Part shown: piece after piece, positions 1 to 8,702 of the stretch
Numbering within the stretch: the stretch's first letter is position 1
How the letters are laid out: each line of letters begins with the position of its first letter
Assembly (NCBI GenBank): GCA_002470165.1
Contig: DKNF01000019.1
Coordinates: forward strand, 1 to 22,942
Source: Betaproteobacteria bacterium UBA7395
Lineage (GTDB): Bacteria; Pseudomonadota; Gammaproteobacteria; Burkholderiales; Rhodocyclaceae
Length of the DNA: 22,942 nucleotides
Reading direction: 5' to 3'
Position numbers and translations under genes: made by a program
The notes under the pieces: generated by a model
The model's input: only the letters and a program-made list of their open reading frames with translations
What the model was told of the DNA's origin: nothing
Databases searched by the model: none

Positions 1-2808
1 GCCGCCTTCAACAACGAATTCGGCCGCCCGAACCTGACCGGCTATTTCCGCACCTATGAGCAGGAAGTGGCTGGCACCGTGCGCGGCTACCACAAGCCGA
101 TCATGATCGCCGGCGGCCTTGGTTCCATCCAGGCCGAGCAATCGTTCAAGGAAGAAACCTTCCCGGTCGGCACGCTGTTCGTGCAACTGGGCGGCCCCGG
201 CATGCTGATCGGCCTGGGCGGCGGTGCCGCTTCGTCGATGACTGCCGGGGTGAACGCCGAAGACCTCGACTTCGCCTCCGTCCAGCGCGGCAACCCGGAA
301 ATCCAGCGGCGTGCTCAGGAGGTGATTGATCGCTGCTGGCAGATGGGCAAGGACAACCCGATTCTTTCCGTGCATGACGTCGGTGCCGGCGGCGTGTCCA
401 ACGCCCTGCCGGAACTCGCCCATTCGGGCGGCGTTGGCGCCAAGTTTGACCTGCGCAAGGTGCCGACCCTGGAACCGGGCATGTCGCCGGCCGAAATCTG
501 GTCCAACGAATCGCAGGAACGCTACGTGCTGGCCATCCCGCCGAACCGTATCGGCGAATTCCAGGCCATGTGCGAACGCGAGCGCTGCCCGTTCGCCGTG
601 GTCGGCGAAGCCACCGGCGACGGCCACCTGACCGTCACCGACGCCCACTTCGGCGTCAATCCGGTCGACATGGAAATGGAAGCGCTGCTCGGCAAGCCGC
701 CGCGGATGACCCGCGACGTGACGTCGCAGCCGGCCAGCTTCGTGCCCTTCGACGCCGTTTCCATCGAACTCAAGGACGCCGCCTATCGCCTGATGCGTCT
801 GCCGACCATCGCCGACAAGACCTTCCTGATTTCCATCGGCGACCGCTCGGTCGGCGGCATGACCGCGCGCGACCAGATGGTTGGTCCGTGGCAGGTGCCG
901 GTGGCCGACGTCGCCGTCACCACGATGGGCTATCAGGGTTATCTCGGCGAAGCCTTCGCCATGGGCGAGCGCACGCCGCTGGCCGTGCTCGATGCGCCGG
1001 CTTCCGGCCGTATGGCCATCGGCGAGGCGCTGACCAACCTGGCTGCCGCCGACATCGGCAGCCTGGACAAGGTCAAGCTCTCCGCCAACTGGATGGCGCC
1101 GTGCGGCGTGCCGGGCGAGGACGCCCGTCTGTACGCGACGGTCGAAGGCATTGCCGAGCTGTGCAAGCAGATCGGCGTGTCGATCCCGGTCGGCAAGGAT
1201 TCGCTGTCGATGCGGACTGCCTGGGAAGAGGGCGGCGAGAAGAAGCAGGTGGTGTCGCCGTTGTCGCTGATCGTCACCTCGTTTGCTGCCGTCGACGACG
1301 TGCGCAAGACGAAAACCCCGCTGCTCGCTACCGACCAGGGCGAAACCGAACTGCTGCTGCTCGATCTCGGCAAGAACCGCCTCGGCGGCTCGGCGCTGGC
1401 GCAGGTGTACAACGCGACCGGCGACGATGCGCCGGACGTTGATGAACCGGCCAAGCTCAAGGGCCTGTTCGACGCCGTGCAGAAGCTCAACCGCGACGGC
1501 CTGCTGCTCGCCTACCATGACCGTTCCGACGGCGGCCTGTTCGTCGCCGCCTGTGAAATGGCCTTCGCCAGCCGTCGCGGCGTCTCGCTCGACCTCGACG
1601 GTGTCTGCTTCGACGCTGCCGCGCTCGACGTTGATGGCGCCGAGAAGCGTCCCGACCTGATGGCCGGCCGCGATTTCGAGAACATCGTCCGTGCCCTGTT
1701 CAACGAGGAACTCGGCGCGCTGATCCAGATCCGCCGCGCCGACCGCGAAAAGGTCACGCCGATCCTGCGCGCCTGCGGTGTGCCTTACCACTTCGTCGGT
1801 TACATGAACGAGTGGGACGAAATCCGCGTCACCCGCAACGCCAAGCGCGTGCTGCGCGAGAAGCGCGTCGACCTGCAGCGTGCCTGGTCGGAAACCAGCT
1901 TCCGCATGCAGGCGATGCGCGACAACCCGGATTGCGCGCAGCAGGAATTCGACCGCATCCTCGACGTGACCGACCCCGGCCTGACGCCGAAGGTGACTTT
2001 CGATCCGCAGGAAGATTTCACCCAGGTCTATCTGGACATCAGCGGTCGCCCGCGCGTCGCCATCCTGCGCGAGCAGGGCGTCAACAGCCATTACGAAATG
2101 GCCGCCGCCTTTGATCGCGCCGGCTTCCAGTCGGTCGACGTGCATATGAGCGACATCCTCGCCGGCCGCGTCAGCCTCAAGGACTTCAAGGGCCTCGTCG
2201 CCTGCGGCGGCTTCTCCTACGGCGACGTGCTCGGTGCCGGCCAGGGCTGGGCCAAGACCATCCTGATGCACGACGGCTGCCGCGACGAGTTCGCCGCCTT
2301 CTTCAACCGTAAGGACACGTTCGCACTGGGCGTCTGCAACGGCTGCCAGATGATGAGCGCACTGAAGTCGATCATCCCGGGTGCCGAACACTGGCCGGCT
2401 TTCCGCCGCAACCAGGTCGAGCAGTTCGAAGCGCGCTTCGTGATGACCGAAGTGCTCGATTCGCCGTCGATCTTCTTCGCCGGCATGGAAGGCTCGCAGA
2501 TTCCCATCGTCGTCTCGCACGGCGAAGGCCGCGCCGTGTTCGATAACGCCGACGACCAGGGCAAGTGCCTGTCCGCCGTGCGCTACGTCGACAACAAGGG
2601 CGAGCCGACCGAGGTTTATCCGTACAACCCGAACGGTTCGCCGGGTGGCCTGACCGCGGTGACCACGGCCGACGGCCGCTTCACGATCATGATGCCGCAC
2701 CCGGAGCGTGTCTTCCGTACCGTGCAGATGTCCTGGCACCCGGAAAACTGGGGCGAGGACAGCCCGTGGATGCGGATGTTCCGCAACGCCCGGCGCTGGG
2801 TGGGCTAA
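1..2808 (+). CDS. purL: Phosphoribosylformylglycinamidine synthase, large single-chain form (5' end outside window)
   Basis: This enzyme converts FGAR, glutamine and ATP to FGAM in de novo purine synthesis, in the cytoplasm. The reading frame is open from the first base, and 935 residues are visible. The family's proteobacterial form is about 1,300 residues, so roughly the first quarter to third is missing. The visible part starts in the synthetase half ([16 protein letters not shown], then [10 protein letters not shown] and [16 protein letters not shown]). It ends with a complete class I glutamine amidotransferase domain: [12 protein letters not shown], the nucleophile Cys in GVCNGCQMM (codon 2335-2337), and the His/Glu of [16 protein letters not shown] near the end. 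No frameshift is seen. The gene ends TAA, and no clear terminator follows before the next gene 57 bases on. Identification is very secure. Confidence 0.98.
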
Positions 2809-2865
2809 TAAACTGGGCGGGCGATTGGCACGAAGCGAGCTATAACTTTTGCACTAGACGATGAT

Positions 2866-3648
2866 ATGCTTGATACATTGATCCTGAAATGTGTCAAGCA
2901 ATATCTTTCCGCTGTGCGCCAATCGTCCATTCCTTCGCTTCCGGCGATCCTCCTTGCTGCGCTATTTCTTTGTGTCGCACCGCTGACAGCCTTTGCCTCG
3001 GCTGCTGAAATCGTATTCGCTTCAGGGGCGGCCAGGATCGTCGCCGCGGATCAGTCTGTTCGCCCTGCCAAAAAAGGGGTGACCGTCGCCGACGGCGATA
3101 CCATCGATGCAATGGATGGAATGGTGCAATTGCGCTTCCGCGATGGCGGGACAATATCTTTGCGACCTGGTACCCAGTTCAAGGTCGAACAGTTCCGCTT
3201 TTCCGGGCAGGGGGGCAAGGCAGCCGCCGATGACCGGGTGACGACGCGCTTGGTCAAGGGCGCCTTGCGGGCCATCAGCGGGGCGATTGGCAAGGAACGT
3301 CACGAGCAGTACCAGATGAAGACGAGTGTCGGAACGATTGGCATCCGGGGTACCGAATTCGGCGCAATATTCGATGCTCAGGGGCTCCGGGTGACTACCC
3401 ATGCCGGTATTGTCGAGGTGTGCAGCGATGTCGGCTGTGAACGGATCGGTCCGGGGCAGTCGCTGATCGTTCGCGATGCCATGAGCCGGCCGAGCAGGTT
3501 GGATGAGACGCCGGTGCTGGCGCCGGGATCGGACTCCGCGCCGACTTTGCCGGCGCCGCAGTCGTCGCCGGATCTGCCGCAACAGCCCGCAGTTGAAAAG
3601 CCGCATGCGCCCAGGGGGGCTGATCCAGCAGCAGCGCCTCGTCGTTGA
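2866..3648 (+). CDS. FecR-domain periplasmic protein (first of two paralogues)
   Basis: A 260-residue protein with a signal peptide: a long N-region, a hydrophobic core at about 25-44, and probable cleavage near ASA-AEIV at 46-47. A FecR domain follows at about 55-205, with the hallmarks LRFRDGGTISLRPGT and TIGIRGTEF (158-165) and a Cys pair at 186 and 191. The tail after about 205 is rich in Pro and Ala. Classical FecR has a cytoplasmic anti-sigma segment and a membrane helix; neither is present, so this is an exported FecR-domain protein rather than an anti-sigma factor. It heads an operon with the Slam-like gene (36-base gap) and the second FecR gene. The start is uncertain because no good Shine-Dalgarno precedes ATG 2866; another ATG at 2861 is out of frame. 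The ligand or partner is unknown. Confidence 0.85.
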   Translation: MLDTLILKCVKQYLSAVRQSSIPSLPAILLAALFLCVAPLTAFASAAEIVFASGAARIVAADQSVRPAKKGVTVADGDTIDAMDGMVQLRFRDGGTISLRPGTQFKVEQFRFSGQGGKAAADDRVTTRLVKGALRAISGAIGKERHEQYQMKTSVGTIGIRGTEFGAIFDAQGLRVTTHAGIVEVCSDVGCERIGPGQSLIVRDAMSRPSRLDETPVLAPGSDSAPTLPAPQSSPDLPQQPAVEKPHAPRGADPAAAPRR

Positions 3649-3684
3649 GAAATCGGGCTATATCAGTTTGTTTTAGGGGGAAGA

Positions 3685-5010
3685 ATGAAAACAACGGGGA
3701 TGCATCGCATCGGCACGCTGTTGCTGATGCTCTTGATGTTTCAGGCCGGACCATTGCGCGCCGACGCCCTGACTGATCAGGCAAAATCCTTACTGGATGC
3801 GGGAAAAGCGGCGGCTGCCTACAGCCTGCTGGAGCCCCAGGAAGCAGCGCGTGCCGGCGAGCCACTGTTCGATTTCCTGTTAGGCCTGGCAGCACTGGAG
3901 GTCGGTCAGAATACCCGGGCTGTCTTTGCGCTGGAGCGTGTTCTGGCAGTCGATCCGGGTAATGTCCGGGCGCGTGCTGAAATTGCCCGGGCCTACCTGG
4001 CGCTGGGTGAAACCGAAACCGCGTTGCAGGAGTTTCAGACGGTCAAGCGTCAGGGCGTACCGGCCGATGTCTCGATGACCATAGATCGCTACATTGCCTC
4101 GGTACGTCGCGGCGACAATGAGGTGGCGCGTTCGCTGACCGCCTATGTCGAAGCATCCGTGGGCTACGACGACAATGTCAACGTCGGTCCCAACCGGAAC
4201 TCGGTCATGATTCCCGGTTTTGGCAATATTCCGTTCAGGCTGAGCCGCGACAGTCGGGCCAACGAAGATGGTTTCGGCTCCCTGGGGGCGGGCGCCAATC
4301 TGCGTCAGCCGCTCGGTAACGGGTTCGCGTTGTTGGCCGGTGTTGCGGCGACATCCCGCGCAAATTTCAGCAAGCAACAGTTCGATACCTATAACGGAGA
4401 GCTCAATCTCGGTATCAGCCGTACGGTCGATCAGGACGTATTCACGGTCATGTTGCAGGAAGGCGTTTTCTACGTCGATGACAGTCGATTCCGGAATCAC
4501 ACCGGGCTGACCGGGCAATGGCAACGCAATCTGGATGCCCGCAACCAGGTCAGTGTTTTTGCCCAGTTTACGCAGCTGCGTTATCCCGACCAGGATGTCC
4601 GTGATGCCGATCGTTGGGTCGGTGGTGCCGGCTATGCCCATCTGTTCCGCGAGGGCATGGTGGCCTACGCCAGCGTTTATGGGGTCGAGGAAAAGCCCCA
4701 GGAACGCGGTGTCGATTGGCTGGGTTTCTCGGGGTGGGGCGCCAGGCTTGGTGGGGGCATGAATTACGACGCCCAGACCGTCCTGTTCGGCGGGGCCAAT
4801 TACGAGCATCGAACCTACGACGAGGATGATCCGTCCTTCCTGCGCAAGCGCCGGGACGACCAGTTCGGCCTGCTGCTCGGGGCGACGCATCATCTGACGT
4901 CGCAGTGGAGCCTTACGCCGCAGTTCAACTACACCCACAACCAATCCAATGTCGCGCTCAACAAATATCACCGCAGCCTGTTCTCGGTGACGCTGCGTCG
5001 CGAGTTCTGA
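3685..5010 (+). CDS. TPR plus outer-membrane beta-barrel protein, Slam-like (DUF560 type)
   Basis: A 441-residue protein preceded by a strong ribosome site (GGGGGA, 5 bases before ATG). It has a signal peptide (1 to about 26, ending LRADA), then helical TPR-like repeats at about 28-135 (for example LLGLAALEVGQNTRAVFALERVLAVDPGN). From about 152 to the end it shows alternating beta-strand patterns with many Tyr, Phe and Gly, and finishes in Phe, as outer-membrane barrels do. A periplasmic TPR domain followed by a barrel is the architecture of Slam (surface lipoprotein assembly modulator), which moves TbpB-type proteins across the outer membrane. The C-terminal pattern (RRDDQFGLLLGATHHLTSQW, then SNVALNKYHRSLFSVTLRREF) fits that family as I remember it. 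It lies between two FecR genes, 15 bases before the second, so they are probably co-translated. A generic TPR/barrel porin is the alternative. Confidence 0.65.
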   Translation: MKTTGMHRIGTLLLMLLMFQAGPLRADALTDQAKSLLDAGKAAAAYSLLEPQEAARAGEPLFDFLLGLAALEVGQNTRAVFALERVLAVDPGNVRARAEIARAYLALGETETALQEFQTVKRQGVPADVSMTIDRYIASVRRGDNEVARSLTAYVEASVGYDDNVNVGPNRNSVMIPGFGNIPFRLSRDSRANEDGFGSLGAGANLRQPLGNGFALLAGVAATSRANFSKQQFDTYNGELNLGISRTVDQDVFTVMLQEGVFYVDDSRFRNHTGLTGQWQRNLDARNQVSVFAQFTQLRYPDQDVRDADRWVGGAGYAHLFREGMVAYASVYGVEEKPQERGVDWLGFSGWGARLGGGMNYDAQTVLFGGANYEHRTYDEDDPSFLRKRRDDQFGLLLGATHHLTSQWSLTPQFNYTHNQSNVALNKYHRSLFSVTLRREF

Positions 5011-5025
5011 GCGGGAGTCCGTCAA

Positions 5026-6378
5026 ATGCTGAATCACGATGTTTTTCGTTTGCAGAACCCGGTGCTGCTGATGGCCTTGGTCGTGCTTTTCCCGCTCAAT
5101 GCCTCGGCCGCCGGCGCTGCCAAGGTGGATTTTGTGGCTGGTCCGGTCAATGTTCTGATGGCTAGCGGTGAACAACGCCCGGCGACCAAGGGCGCCGAGG
5201 TGCAGAGCGGTGAAACCCTGGTGACCGGAAGCGGCGGGCGGGTCCAGTTGCGTTTTTCCGATGGCGGTATGGTTTCACTGCAACCCGGCTCCGAGTATCG
5301 AATCGATGATTACCGCTTTTCTGGTAGTCAGGATGGTTCGGAAAAAGGGGTCTTCAGCCTTGTGAAAGGTGGCTTGAGGACGATTACCGGAGAGATCGGG
5401 CGCAACAACAAGGCGGCCTATCGCGTGAATACCGGGGTTGCGACCATCGGCATTCGGGGAACCGAGTTCACCATCGTCTATACCGGGGCCAACAGCATTT
5501 CCCTGGCCACCGGGGAGGGGGCGATCGAAGTCTGCAACAACGCCGGCTGTGTCGTCATGCCGTCCGGCACGTCCGCAATCGTCAGCGGTCCGGATACCCG
5601 CATCGAACGCAGCGAGGTGCGCCCGAGACTGGACCCTGCGCAACCGGACGACACCCGCCTGGCAACTTTTTCTTCCAGCGACGCCCGGCAGGATAATGGG
5701 CGGATCGCACCGGTTTCAACGCCTCTGCGCTCCGGGGGCGGTTATGCGGTGGCTTATGCCTATCGGGACGATCCCGCGGCGGCTACCGTCATTGATCGTG
5801 TTGCGTCTACATCGGCAGTATTCGACGATTTCTCGGCCATGCGTTCATTCATAGACGGCACGGAAAGCTTTGCCGCCGGCACGATTGCCGGCAGCTTCTC
5901 CAAGGATGGCGTACTGGGCTGGGGGCGCTGGAGCGGCGGTACGGTAACCGATGCCGCTACGGATCCGCTGGCCGATCTGCATTACGTTGTCGGAACGCCG
6001 ACGTCGCTGGCCGGACTGACGGGTACCGCCAACTTCACTTCGTTTGGCGGTACCAATGCGACGCACAGGGATTCGGTCACAGGTGTCGTTACCGTCGGTG
6101 GTGTCGCCACTGGTTCAATGACGGTTAACTTTGGCACAAGCACGATTCAGAGCGCATCGCTCAACATCCCGATCAATGGAAACAACATTGCAGTCAATGC
6201 GTTGAATATCAACGTAGCGGCAGATGGTACTTATATTTTCAATGATACTAACAGCAGCATCCGCGGCTTCTTCTCCGGGGCAAATGCGTCGCACACGGGT
6301 TTGACCTACAGCACATTGGGAGCGCCTGCTGGGCTGAACAATGGTCGTGTATCGGGGGCCATTGTCTTCAGTCGCTAA
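5026..6378 (+). CDS. FecR-domain protein with C-terminal TbpB-like barrel region (second paralogue)
   Basis: A 450-residue exported protein with a signal peptide at 1 to about 29 (core LLMALVVLFPLNASAA). The FecR domain spans about 33-190, with LRFSDGGMVSLQPGS, TIGIRGTEF (140-148) and Cys 170/175 at the same places as in the upstream paralogue. After a linker, residues about 283-450 are Gly, Thr, Asn and Ser rich with beta-strand periodicity: GTIAGSFSKDGVLGWGRW, LTGTANFTSFGG, GSMTVNFGTS, then RGFFSGANASHTGLTYS and a final VSGAIVFSR. The GFF.G.NA...G pattern near the end recalls TbpB-type eight-stranded barrels, which Slam proteins export. The tail has lower GC than its surroundings. GGGAG lies 7 bases before ATG 5026. 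The FecR call is firm; the TbpB-like call is an inference from pattern. Confidence 0.82.
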   Translation: MLNHDVFRLQNPVLLMALVVLFPLNASAAGAAKVDFVAGPVNVLMASGEQRPATKGAEVQSGETLVTGSGGRVQLRFSDGGMVSLQPGSEYRIDDYRFSGSQDGSEKGVFSLVKGGLRTITGEIGRNNKAAYRVNTGVATIGIRGTEFTIVYTGANSISLATGEGAIEVCNNAGCVVMPSGTSAIVSGPDTRIERSEVRPRLDPAQPDDTRLATFSSSDARQDNGRIAPVSTPLRSGGGYAVAYAYRDDPAAATVIDRVASTSAVFDDFSAMRSFIDGTESFAAGTIAGSFSKDGVLGWGRWSGGTVTDAATDPLADLHYVVGTPTSLAGLTGTANFTSFGGTNATHRDSVTGVVTVGGVATGSMTVNFGTSTIQSASLNIPINGNNIAVNALNINVAADGTYIFNDTNSSIRGFFSGANASHTGLTYSTLGAPAGLNNGRVSGAIVFSR

Positions 6379-6407
6379 ACGGCCGGTTGGGTTGATCGGC
6401 GCATCGC

Positions 6408-8615
6408 TTATTTGGTTTGGAATGTGGTGACGCCTTCGTCCCACTCGCTGTTGCCTGGTGGCAATTCGCGCAGGTGGGCGATACGCTCGAGATAAACGCG
6501 GTAGAGCATGTCATCCGGGGCTTTTCGTTGCAGGTCGCGGAGGATCGTTTCCGCGGCTGCCCATGATTGTTCGCGATAGCGCGTCAGGGCCTGCGACCAG
6601 TTCGCCAGTTCCTCCATCCGCTCAGGGGTTACGGATTCTGTCGTGCCCAAGGGTTCGTAAATCGATACCGCGCTGGCCTTGCCCTTGACTCGCACCTTGT
6701 CCAGTTCCCGGAAAACGATGTCCGGGCAGGCGTCCCGGGTCTTCTCTCCGACCGCGATGCCGACGCCGTATTCCTTGGTGATGCCTTCGAGGCGAGCGCC
6801 CAGATTGACCGCGTCGCCCATCACCGTGTACGACTTGCGAACGGAAGAGCCCATGTCGCCGACAGTCATGGTTCCGCTATTGATGCCGATGCCGATCTTC
6901 AGCACCGGCCAACCTTTTGCCGCGAAGGTTTCGCCCAGCGAGCGGAGGCGGCGCTGCATTTCGAGCGCAGTCATCACTGCTTCCCGTGCGTGCAGCGGAT
7001 TGGCGACGGGGGCGCCCCAGAACGCCATGATGGCATCCCCGATGTACTTGTCGAGCGTGCCCCGGTGTTTCTGGATGATCAGGGTCATCGCACCGAGATA
7101 CTCGTTCATCAGCGCGCTCAGTTCCCTGGGCGGCAGGCCTTCGGAAATCGTCGTGAAGTTCCGAACGTCCGAGAAGAGCACGCTCATGTCGGCGTTGCGC
7201 CCCTCCATGCTGTATTCCTCGGGGTTCTTCGCCATCTCGTCGACCAGCTCGGGGGGGACATACTGCCCGAACAGTGCGGTGAACTGGCGTTTGGCGTTGG
7301 ACTCCCAGAAAAATCCCCAGGCGGCGTTGAAGACATAGATCATCAGGATGGCCAGCGTGGCCGAAGCAATCGGCATGACGACATGCACCTGCCACAATGC
7401 GAAGTTGGCTGCGACCAGTATGCCGAAGATGCCCAGTGTGAGCAGTGTTCCACGCAGTGGTGACATGAAGGGTAGCGATAGCGCCAGGATGCCACCGGCA
7501 AGGATCAGCGCCACGATCTCGGCGGCAAGCATGTAATACGGTTTTTCCTTGACCGAGCCGTCGAGTGCGCCGGCCAGCAGGTTGGCGTGTGTTTCCACGC
7601 CAGGATAGCTGCCGCCTACGGGCGTCGCCCGCAAGTCCTTGAGTCCGGGGGCGCTGGTGCCGATCAGCACGATCCGGCCGAAGAGTTGCTCGAAATCGGC
7701 ACGACCGGCGAGGACATCGGCTGCTGAGACATAGGGGAAGCTACCCTCGCGACCCCGGTAGGGAATCAGCGCACAGCCATCGCCATCGACCGGCAGGCGC
7801 ACCATGCCACGCAGGCCGATGACATCGATCGCTTCGACCGGCTCCCCGGGGGCCGGTACGTATGGGTGCAGTTCTCCCTGGCCGACGAGCAGTTGCAGCA
7901 TGGCCAGCGACAAGGCGGGATAGTACTTGCCGTCGTTTTCTGCCAGCAACGGAACCCGGCGGATGATGCCGTCGTTGTCGATCTTCGGGTTGAAGTGGCC
8001 GCCGCTTGCCGCTGCCTCCTGGAATGCCGCCAGATTGCCGCCATAACCGGGCCAGCTGGGAAATTGTCCGGCCGGTAAAGGGGCCGGGAATTGCTGTGGC
8101 GGCGGCAATGCGCTGCCCGGGGAGCCGCCGGGACGTTCGGAGAAATGGAAGCCAAGCACGGTCGGACGCTCGCGCAACGTCTCGGCAAAAATCCGGTCAT
8201 AGTCCAGTAGCGGTCGTTGTGCTTCGACGGCGCGACGGAACTCGACGTTGTTGCGGAATTCGCCGCTGGCCAGCGATTCAAGCACCGGCAGCCCGGAACT
8301 GTCGTCGCGCTCGGCAAACACGATATCGAAACCGATCACGGCAACCCGGTATTCATCGGTCAGTTGCCTGATCAGGTCGGACATCACCTTCCGGTTCCAC
8401 GGCCAGCGGCCAAGCTCGCCCAGGCTTTTTTCATCGATGTCGACGATGACGATGCGCTCGTCCAGCGTATCCGGCATGAAAGCGCGTGTGCGGACATCGT
8501 AGGAGTAGTTGTCCAGCAATGTGAGCAGCGGAATCTGCCAGTTCCCGATGACATGGCCGAAGATGCTGGCAATGCAGAGGACGCCGAACAGGAGGCGGGG
8601 CAGTAGCCGTTTCAT
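6408..8615 (-). CDS. CHASE2-domain class III adenylate cyclase
   Basis: A 735-residue inner-membrane sensor enzyme predicted to make cAMP. A helix at about 5-21 leads into a periplasmic CHASE2 domain (about 25-340; VIVDIDEKSLGELGRWPW, VLIGTSAPGLKDLRATP). Three helices cluster at about 360-440, followed by a cytoplasmic cyclase domain at about 475-660. Both metal-binding Asp are present: D483 in LFSDVRNFT and D527 in KYIGDAIMAFWGAP. Base-selecting residues K523 and T597 (YTVMGDAVNLGARLE) form the Lys/Thr pair typical of bacterial adenylate rather than guanylate cyclases. A soluble tail of about 75 residues follows. I chose ATG 8615 because the membrane helix begins there; a TTG at 8699 would add 28 unlikely residues. 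The gene is convergent with the FecR/Slam operon, with 29 bases between stop codons. The CHASE2 ligand is unknown. Confidence 0.93.
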   Translation of the reverse strand: MKRLLPRLLFGVLCIASIFGHVIGNWQIPLLTLLDNYSYDVRTRAFMPDTLDERIVIVDIDEKSLGELGRWPWNRKVMSDLIRQLTDEYRVAVIGFDIVFAERDDSSGLPVLESLASGEFRNNVEFRRAVEAQRPLLDYDRIFAETLRERPTVLGFHFSERPGGSPGSALPPPQQFPAPLPAGQFPSWPGYGGNLAAFQEAAASGGHFNPKIDNDGIIRRVPLLAENDGKYYPALSLAMLQLLVGQGELHPYVPAPGEPVEAIDVIGLRGMVRLPVDGDGCALIPYRGREGSFPYVSAADVLAGRADFEQLFGRIVLIGTSAPGLKDLRATPVGGSYPGVETHANLLAGALDGSVKEKPYYMLAAEIVALILAGGILALSLPFMSPLRGTLLTLGIFGILVAANFALWQVHVVMPIASATLAILMIYVFNAAWGFFWESNAKRQFTALFGQYVPPELVDEMAKNPEEYSMEGRNADMSVLFSDVRNFTTISEGLPPRELSALMNEYLGAMTLIIQKHRGTLDKYIGDAIMAFWGAPVANPLHAREAVMTALEMQRRLRSLGETFAAKGWPVLKIGIGINSGTMTVGDMGSSVRKSYTVMGDAVNLGARLEGITKEYGVGIAVGEKTRDACPDIVFRELDKVRVKGKASAVSIYEPLGTTESVTPERMEELANWSQALTRYREQSWAAAETILRDLQRKAPDDMLYRVYLERIAHLRELPPGNSEWDEGVTTFQTK

Positions 8616-8702
8616 GGCTGAAAATTGCTTTCCGGACAAAATGTAGTGTCGGAACCCTACCATGACCCCGATGGGAAACAAATATCCACATGCCAGCAAA
8701 TG

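Follow-up and report, generated by a model that had tools for sequence, protein, structure and literature searches.

Within a 22,942-nucleotide stretch of DNA from Betaproteobacteria bacterium UBA7395 (assembly GCA_002470165.1, contig DKNF01000019.1, positions 1 to 22,942; the whole stretch is called the window below), three neighbouring genes were analysed computationally: FecR1, a gene for a Slam-like protein, and FecR2. The second and third of these (3685-5010 and 5026-6378) probably encode a type XI (Slam) secretion pair, in which FecR2 would be exported whole. Computation established which domains the two proteins have, what fold is predicted for the cargo, and that the pairing of their genes is conserved. 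New here is a predicted class of cargo with a FecR payload, not found described, within a known secretion type. The features concerned are listed below; for the three proteins, Sec signal peptides were assigned by visual inspection only, as was the lack of a lipobox in the window, and published work is cited by PMC number for the passages concerned.

2866..3648, forward strand: FecR1, 260 amino acids, with a signal peptide, a PF04773 match of 36.1 bits and a Pro-rich end without barrel tail
3685..5010, forward strand: putative Slam-like outer-membrane translocon, with a signal peptide and matches to PF04575 (49.4 bits) and TPR_19 (40.9 bits)
Layout of the Slam-like protein: TPR region at about residues 30-125, SlipAM barrel at residues 154-441, last residue Phe
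5026..6378, forward strand: FecR2, a predicted type XI cargo of the soluble kind; after a signal peptide come the FecR domain, a linker, the handle and the barrel
5113..5640, forward strand: FecR domain of FecR2 (residues 30-205), all-beta
5713..6375, forward strand: handle and beta-barrel tail of FecR2 (residues 230-450), the predicted Slam-targeting part
6265..6309, forward strand: conserved C-terminal motif of FecR2, GFFSGANASHTGLTY (residues 414-428)

A preliminary description of this DNA had proposed three co-directional genes, with a FecR domain in the first and third and TPR plus a beta-barrel ending in Phe in the middle one, and all of these elements were recovered. The open reading frames (ORFs) lie on the forward strand, 36 and 15 bases apart, FecR1 and FecR2 match PF04773 with 36.1 and 51.0 bits (Pfam cut-off 24; residues 64-168 in FecR2), and the middle product exceeds the cut-offs of SlipAM and TPR_19 and ends in Phe. 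Against the Slam/DUF560 profile, PF04575 (SlipAM), the 3685-5010 product scored 49.4 bits (cut-off 22), and the match runs from end to end (profile positions 4-288 of 288, residues 154-441). The N-terminal TPR domain that marks a type XI outer-membrane protein was found as TPR_19 in Pfam, and SlipAM was the sole barrel family over its cut-off in the Pfam and NCBIfam scans. The majority of the 116 relatives found for this protein also carry PF04575.

The structure of FecR2 was predicted from a 142-sequence alignment, an earlier fold from nine sequences having been useless (predicted local distance difference test score 42.6). The model is arranged as signal peptide, FecR domain, handle and barrel, and its residues 230-450 superpose on NHBA, fHbp, the C-lobe of TbpB and HphA. 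NHBA is itself a Slam cargo. The resemblance of the tail to TbpB barrels that had been suggested beforehand was thus borne out in the model, which predicts a handle and a TbpB/fHbp-type barrel landing on Slam cargo structures.

The sequence of the FecR2 tail gave no Pfam match at E ≤ 0.1. A wide tail alignment (A3) was made from 67 FecR ORFs, of which ten that were cut off, very long or motif-less were removed by eye (57 left); L028 and L008 were then omitted, giving 55 rows. The profile of this alignment, run against 177,635 PDB sequences, returned two matches at E ≤ 10, both to lactoferrin-binding protein B (LbpB; E 0.14 and 0.19). The LbpB alignment placed the stretch vsGfFaGanAsr of the cargo family on VTGGFYGPQAAE, that is, the family motif against GGFYGPQAAE of LbpB. 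A pattern for this motif, G-x-[FIVLM]-x-G-x-x-A-x-x-x-[GAV]-x-x-[YFW], composed after the alignment was viewed, was found within 90 residues of the C-terminus in 58 of the 67 FecR cargo ORFs and in 0 of 561 control ORFs of at least 350 amino acids; of the nine cargo ORFs without it, two (L007, L078) are truncated at contig ends. Tail profiles also matched in two classic-Slam-type regions, one in genome G252 (E 2e-5 to 3e-5) and one in genome G149 (E 1.6e-4 to 2.7e-4; both scaled to a set of 5000 sequences), where the proteins matched are small, adjoin the classic Slam and are identified by Pfam as TbpB_B_D and HphA.

In the opposite direction, a long relative with FecR and barrel in G242 exceeded the Pfam cut-off of TbpB_B_D (29.0 vs 26), and one of the 55 tails matched HphA_C at E ≤ 0.01. 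A TbpB-type profile was prepared from 14 of 17 PF01298 matches; two of those used are under the Pfam cut-off, and one match that is itself a FecR cargo was left out. Run against the 4863 ORFs of the 79 related loci introduced below, it gave 33 matches at E ≤ 10. FecR ORFs account for 28 of them and for the whole top 10, and the 537 non-FecR ORFs of at least 350 amino acids gave no match. BLASTP of an HphA-like protein against a FecR cargo tail gave E 3e-6, a value of little weight since the pair was chosen after the profile matches.

Related loci were collected from 84,980 species genomes by a search that used no alignment but the Slam-like one. The 80 of 269 candidates that scored best against the Slam query gave 79 distinct loci, which are not representative of remote Slams. 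Locus ORFs were taken as the longest frames, so that some starts are too early and gaps are approximate, and this start artefact accounts for FecR frames overlapping the Slam frame by 1395 bases in L053 and 498 bases in L074. A co-directional FecR gene lies directly downstream of the Slam-like gene in 77 of the 79 loci, with a median gap of 12 bases. The two exceptions are L049, where FecR is on the opposite strand, and L075, where there is no FecR. A recognisable tail was found in the downstream FecR protein at 63 of the 77 loci with a profile of only the window and eight relatives, and at 69 of the 77 with the wide profile. An upstream FecR gene, the counterpart of FecR1, is present at 14 of 79, which makes FecR1 an accessory gene that most related loci lack.

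Neighbours of the pair differ by lineage, and the pairing is therefore not explained by inherited gene order alone. An ornithine/lysine/arginine-type decarboxylase gene neighbours it in 20 loci, a dCTP-deaminase-type gene in 10, and FtsK-, LolA- and MgsA-type genes in 7, mostly in records named as methylotrophs (groups identified by Pfam on one representative each). In the source genome (282 contigs, 83.6% completeness), profile searches found a single SlipAM match and four FecR matches; because two of the four FecR genes flank the one Slam-like gene, their adjacency is more than chance.

Association was also followed from the tail outwards. Tail homologues usually stand beside a Slam-like gene: this was so for 25 of 28 tail matches in a class sample and 17 of 17 in a family sample, the window being in both. 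The class sample held 274 genomes, 23 of them with the 28 tail matches, and it is not independent of the wide tail alignment, several of its contigs being equal in length to records from which alignment members came (e.g. L020, L039, L084). Slam-like neighbours that had first appeared as fragments were confirmed when a wider region was taken. One of the three non-adjacent matches reaches the end of its contig, and the genome concerned has a Slam-like match at another place. The family sample held 61 genomes, with tail matches in 14 of them and adjacency judged by coordinates; the pair in G322 is weak on both sides. SlipAM was matched in 28 of the 274 class genomes, and FecR genes adjoin it in 18 and not in 10, of which five are high-scoring and of the classic Slam type and five low-scoring (lists read by hand). 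On these counts, FecR is a partner of this Slam branch, not of Slams at large.

Under the mechanism proposed here, FecR2 would cross the inner membrane through Sec, an ordinary signal peptide being removed, and would stay unfolded in the periplasm. The Slam-like protein would recognise the C-terminal TbpB-type barrel of FecR2 and thread the chain through its own barrel, and the handle and barrel would then fold outside, with the FecR domain carried along as payload. As FecR2 appears to have no lipid anchor, it would be released or only loosely held. Recognition at the C-terminus, unfolded passage and chaperone help are inferred for FecR2 by analogy: unfolded cargo passes through the Slams that have been studied, Skp helps and is needed for the export of TbpB, and a C-terminal motif of the cargo has been proposed as what Slam recognises (PMC9090332). 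A gene for a Skp-family chaperone is present in the source genome. HphA is a soluble, released Slam cargo (PMC8560813), and for type XI subgroup 1B a soluble cargo with a single barrel is the rule (PMC8406197). FecR2 fits this soluble type: a lipobox seems to be lacking, and its model ends in a handle and a barrel. A lipobox pattern within the first 60 residues was found in one of the 67 FecR cargo ORFs (the window's included), where it lies in the middle of the hydrophobic stretch. Type XI cargo has further been described as a variable N-terminal effector followed by pedestal and barrel (PMC12282271), a scheme to which the FecR domain, handle and barrel of FecR2 correspond one for one.

What the payload does may be guessed from Lsa33 of Leptospira, a FecR-domain protein reported as a surface adhesin: it binds laminin and plasminogen and probably lies exposed on the surface (PMC3444417). 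The NCBIfam model of Lsa33 matches FecR2 weakly (27.8 bits vs a cut-off of 420), and our guess by this analogy is that the exported FecR domain would be a binding or adhesive module rather than a sigma regulator.

Among known systems, subgroup 1B (Slams HsmA and HrpB; cargo HphA, hemophilin and HrpC) is the closest described here, as it too has a TPR and SlipAM protein adjoining its cargo, and that cargo likewise shows a handle, a C-terminal barrel and an FYG/FAG-type motif; a signal peptide and the lack of a lipobox, judged by eye in FecR2, would be shared too. It differs in its payload, a heme-binding clamp where FecR2 has a FecR domain, and no TonB receptor or heme genes were seen among the 18 scanned proteins of the window. 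Moreover, the TPR part of our Slam-like protein falls outside TPR_Slam, and barrels of the FecR2 family are mostly below TbpB_B_D detection. From the neisserial cargo of Slam1 and Slam2 (TbpB, LbpB, fHbp, HpuA, NHBA), which are lipidated surface lipoproteins, FecR2 is set apart by its apparent lack of a lipobox. FecR/PupR-type sigma regulators have a cytoplasmic anti-sigma domain and an STN domain; a Pfam scan found neither in FecR2, whose FecR domain is instead joined to a cargo-type barrel.

Several results weigh against a type XI pair. The TPR region of the Slam-like protein gave no match to TPR_Slam (PF24575) at E ≤ 0.1, whereas two classic Slams do match. Similarity in sequence between the tail and TbpB barrels is weak, though it appears to point the same way as the predicted fold: hhalign of the tail with the TbpB-type profile gave a probability of just 22.6% (P 9e-4; four control comparisons, 0.1-0.2% with E 0.27-0.55), TbpB_B_D was found at E ≤ 0.01 in 5 of the 55 tails, the window's not among them, and the TbpB-type profile misses the window's FecR2; of the 105 FecR ORFs in the loci it misses 77, a number that includes tail-less ones. 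The tail profiles matched in only 2 of the 11 fetched classic-Slam-type regions (L162-L172). The downstream FecR protein has no tail by the wide profile at 8 of 77 loci, two of which end at contig ends, and in the family sample 4 of the 17 genomes with a Slam-like match above 200 bits have no tail match. Two members of one genus in the class sample, G262 (L142) and G150 (L143), encode the tail as a protein by itself (tail-only), and neither genome has a Slam-like match. In cluster 3 of type XI (marine), a known barrel is reported to be rare among co-occurring genes (PMC12282271). All this considered, the claim that the Slam-like protein exports the tail or the whole of FecR2 is supported by the modelled fold and the pairing and remains the likely one, none of the checks having overturned it.

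FecR2 might alternatively have a split topology, in which the barrel is exported and the FecR domain, folding first, is kept in the periplasm or the pore as a plug, as in LapA-type adhesins. Such a protein would span the outer membrane, either as a surface protein that is retained or as a sensor, and could report surface events to the periplasm; we consider both the topology and this role unlikely. The best PDB sequence match of the FecR profile is 5ix9 (E 0.0034), an entry named 'Antifreeze protein' which we take to be the retention part of the ice adhesin MpIBP, and the NCBIfam model retention_LapA picks up all 35 of the 35 FecR members at E ≤ 1e-3, the N-terminal part of the FecR domain aligning with the first half of the LapA/MpIBP module. 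In sigma regulators the FecR domain works on the periplasmic side (PMC7186176), a location that would suit such a plug. With no lipid anchor apparent, retention of FecR2 would need other means. Against this, retention_LapA gave FecR2 only 35.5 bits, below the curated cut-off of 50 over which a LapA-type retained adhesin would be called, and about half of the module is covered. The same likeness appears in L003, another FecR protein of the source genome without Slam context, and may thus be a trait of FecR domains at large. Unlike LapA and MpIBP, FecR2 has no RTX repeats or type I secretion genes beside it among the scanned window proteins. No LapA-type structure was among the matches listed by VIA-align and Foldseek for FecR2, which excludes nothing. 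To our knowledge, studied Slam cargo is exported whole, and we know of no Slam cargo that acts as an outer-membrane-spanning plug.

Less probable still is that the TPR-barrel protein exports or assembles an envelope polymer, with FecR2 as a periplasmic partner whose tail is no targeting signal. The NCBIfam models of BcsC, EpsL and a PEP-CTERM outer-membrane family match the Slam-like protein, weakly and far under their cut-offs, and genes like family-41 glycosyltransferases are nearby in 39 of the 79 loci; however, only SlipAM passes its cut-off among barrel families, over the full profile length, and the partner's tail has a predicted Slam-cargo fold and a shared C-terminal motif. It is very improbable that the genes serve cell-surface signalling, with FecR2 regulating a sigma factor and the Slam-like protein as receptor, because FecR2 has only the juxta-membrane FecR part and no anti-sigma part. 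Its FecR domain matches the juxta-membrane FecR subdomain of PupR, and FecR was the only family found in it by Pfam; PupR needs both this subdomain and STN to bind its transducer (PMC7186176). By eye, FecR2 also begins with a signal peptide, and no sigma-factor or TonB-receptor match was found in the 18 scanned window proteins, some ORFs being unscanned (the 79 loci were not searched for sigma genes). FecR2 was accordingly rejected as a sigma regulator, anti-sigma and STN domains not having been found in Pfam.

If FecR2 is type XI cargo, as we favour, a Slam branch found mostly in records labelled beta-proteobacteria gains one specific class of predicted cargo, whose payload domain is new, and the rule of a variable payload with a C-terminal barrel would extend past what is easily detected in sequence. 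It also suggests that some genes annotated 'FecR family protein' encode exported proteins rather than signalling regulators. Most type XI outer-membrane proteins lack a known or predicted cargo, and the 2025 survey that says so covered co-occurring genes of clusters 1 and 3 only (PMC12282271). A full-text search, with subscription papers and most preprints outside it, found no literature joining FecR to Slam or type XI secretion, and the word FecR is absent from the main texts of two type XI surveys and of a Slam-lipoprotein survey.

The set of three genes is flanked by a purL-type gene on one side and a convergent gene on the other:

6408-8699, reverse strand: CHASE2 and cyclase-domain protein (Pfam), convergent with FecR2 and 29 bases away

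The purL of the window recurs in one of the 79 loci. The CHASE2 cyclase, sought by phmmer with the window protein (E 1e-5) in loci that extend up to about 6 kb on each side, was matched in just 2 of 79 and was rejected as a partner. Scans for promoters (1 promoter-like site vs 1.6 in shuffles) and terminators (6 terminator-like sites vs 3.7) were not informative. Named close relatives carry the labels Dechloromonas, Azonexus and Rhodocyclaceae. Among cultured relatives, Azospira oryzae (L044) and Azonexus hydrophilus (L014) each carry the Slam-FecR pair.

A family-41 glycosyltransferase-like gene with TPR was found near the pair in the 39 loci mentioned above (one on the opposite strand, two with short matches only). 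It stands immediately behind the FecR gene in 21 loci (Pfam on one); loci with such a gene downstream of FecR include L017, L018, L019, L022, L030 and L044. Its product might glycosylate the cargo, and glycosylation has been suspected for another type XI cargo (PMC12282271). The source genome (83.6% complete) gave no family-41 match, and such an enzyme seems not to be required as a cargo-modifying partner.

At 11 of the 79 loci, at least two FecR genes lie behind the Slam-like gene; at six of them, two of these genes bear tails. At those six (L022, L037, L055, L056, L061, L063), two FecR-tail proteins stand behind a single Slam-like gene, which suggests one translocon with two cargoes. The cargo frames L034 7489-11406, L021 1376-3643 and L148 5325-12668 encode proteins of 755 to 1358 amino acids with long stretches between FecR and the C-terminus. 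In these, Pfam at E ≤ 0.01 found only FecR, one TbpB_B_D and two sub-threshold DUF7354 matches within the FecR end; the long stretches are possibly extra payload.

The tail-only proteins of L142 and L143 are short and FecR-less, with a signal peptide by eye. One Slam-like/FecR copy in G034 is split over several frames (L173, about 6133-8114), and in the other (L174 2974-3768) the tail has an open frame of its own, separate from the FecR gene. The loci L049 and L078 come from records titled as Bordetella parapertussis metagenome-assembled genomes, a species label that looks doubtful for these bins. Upstream of the Slam-FecR pair in L154, a 1212-amino-acid frame (1986-5621) contains two FecR stretches and an OmpA-type membrane barrel.

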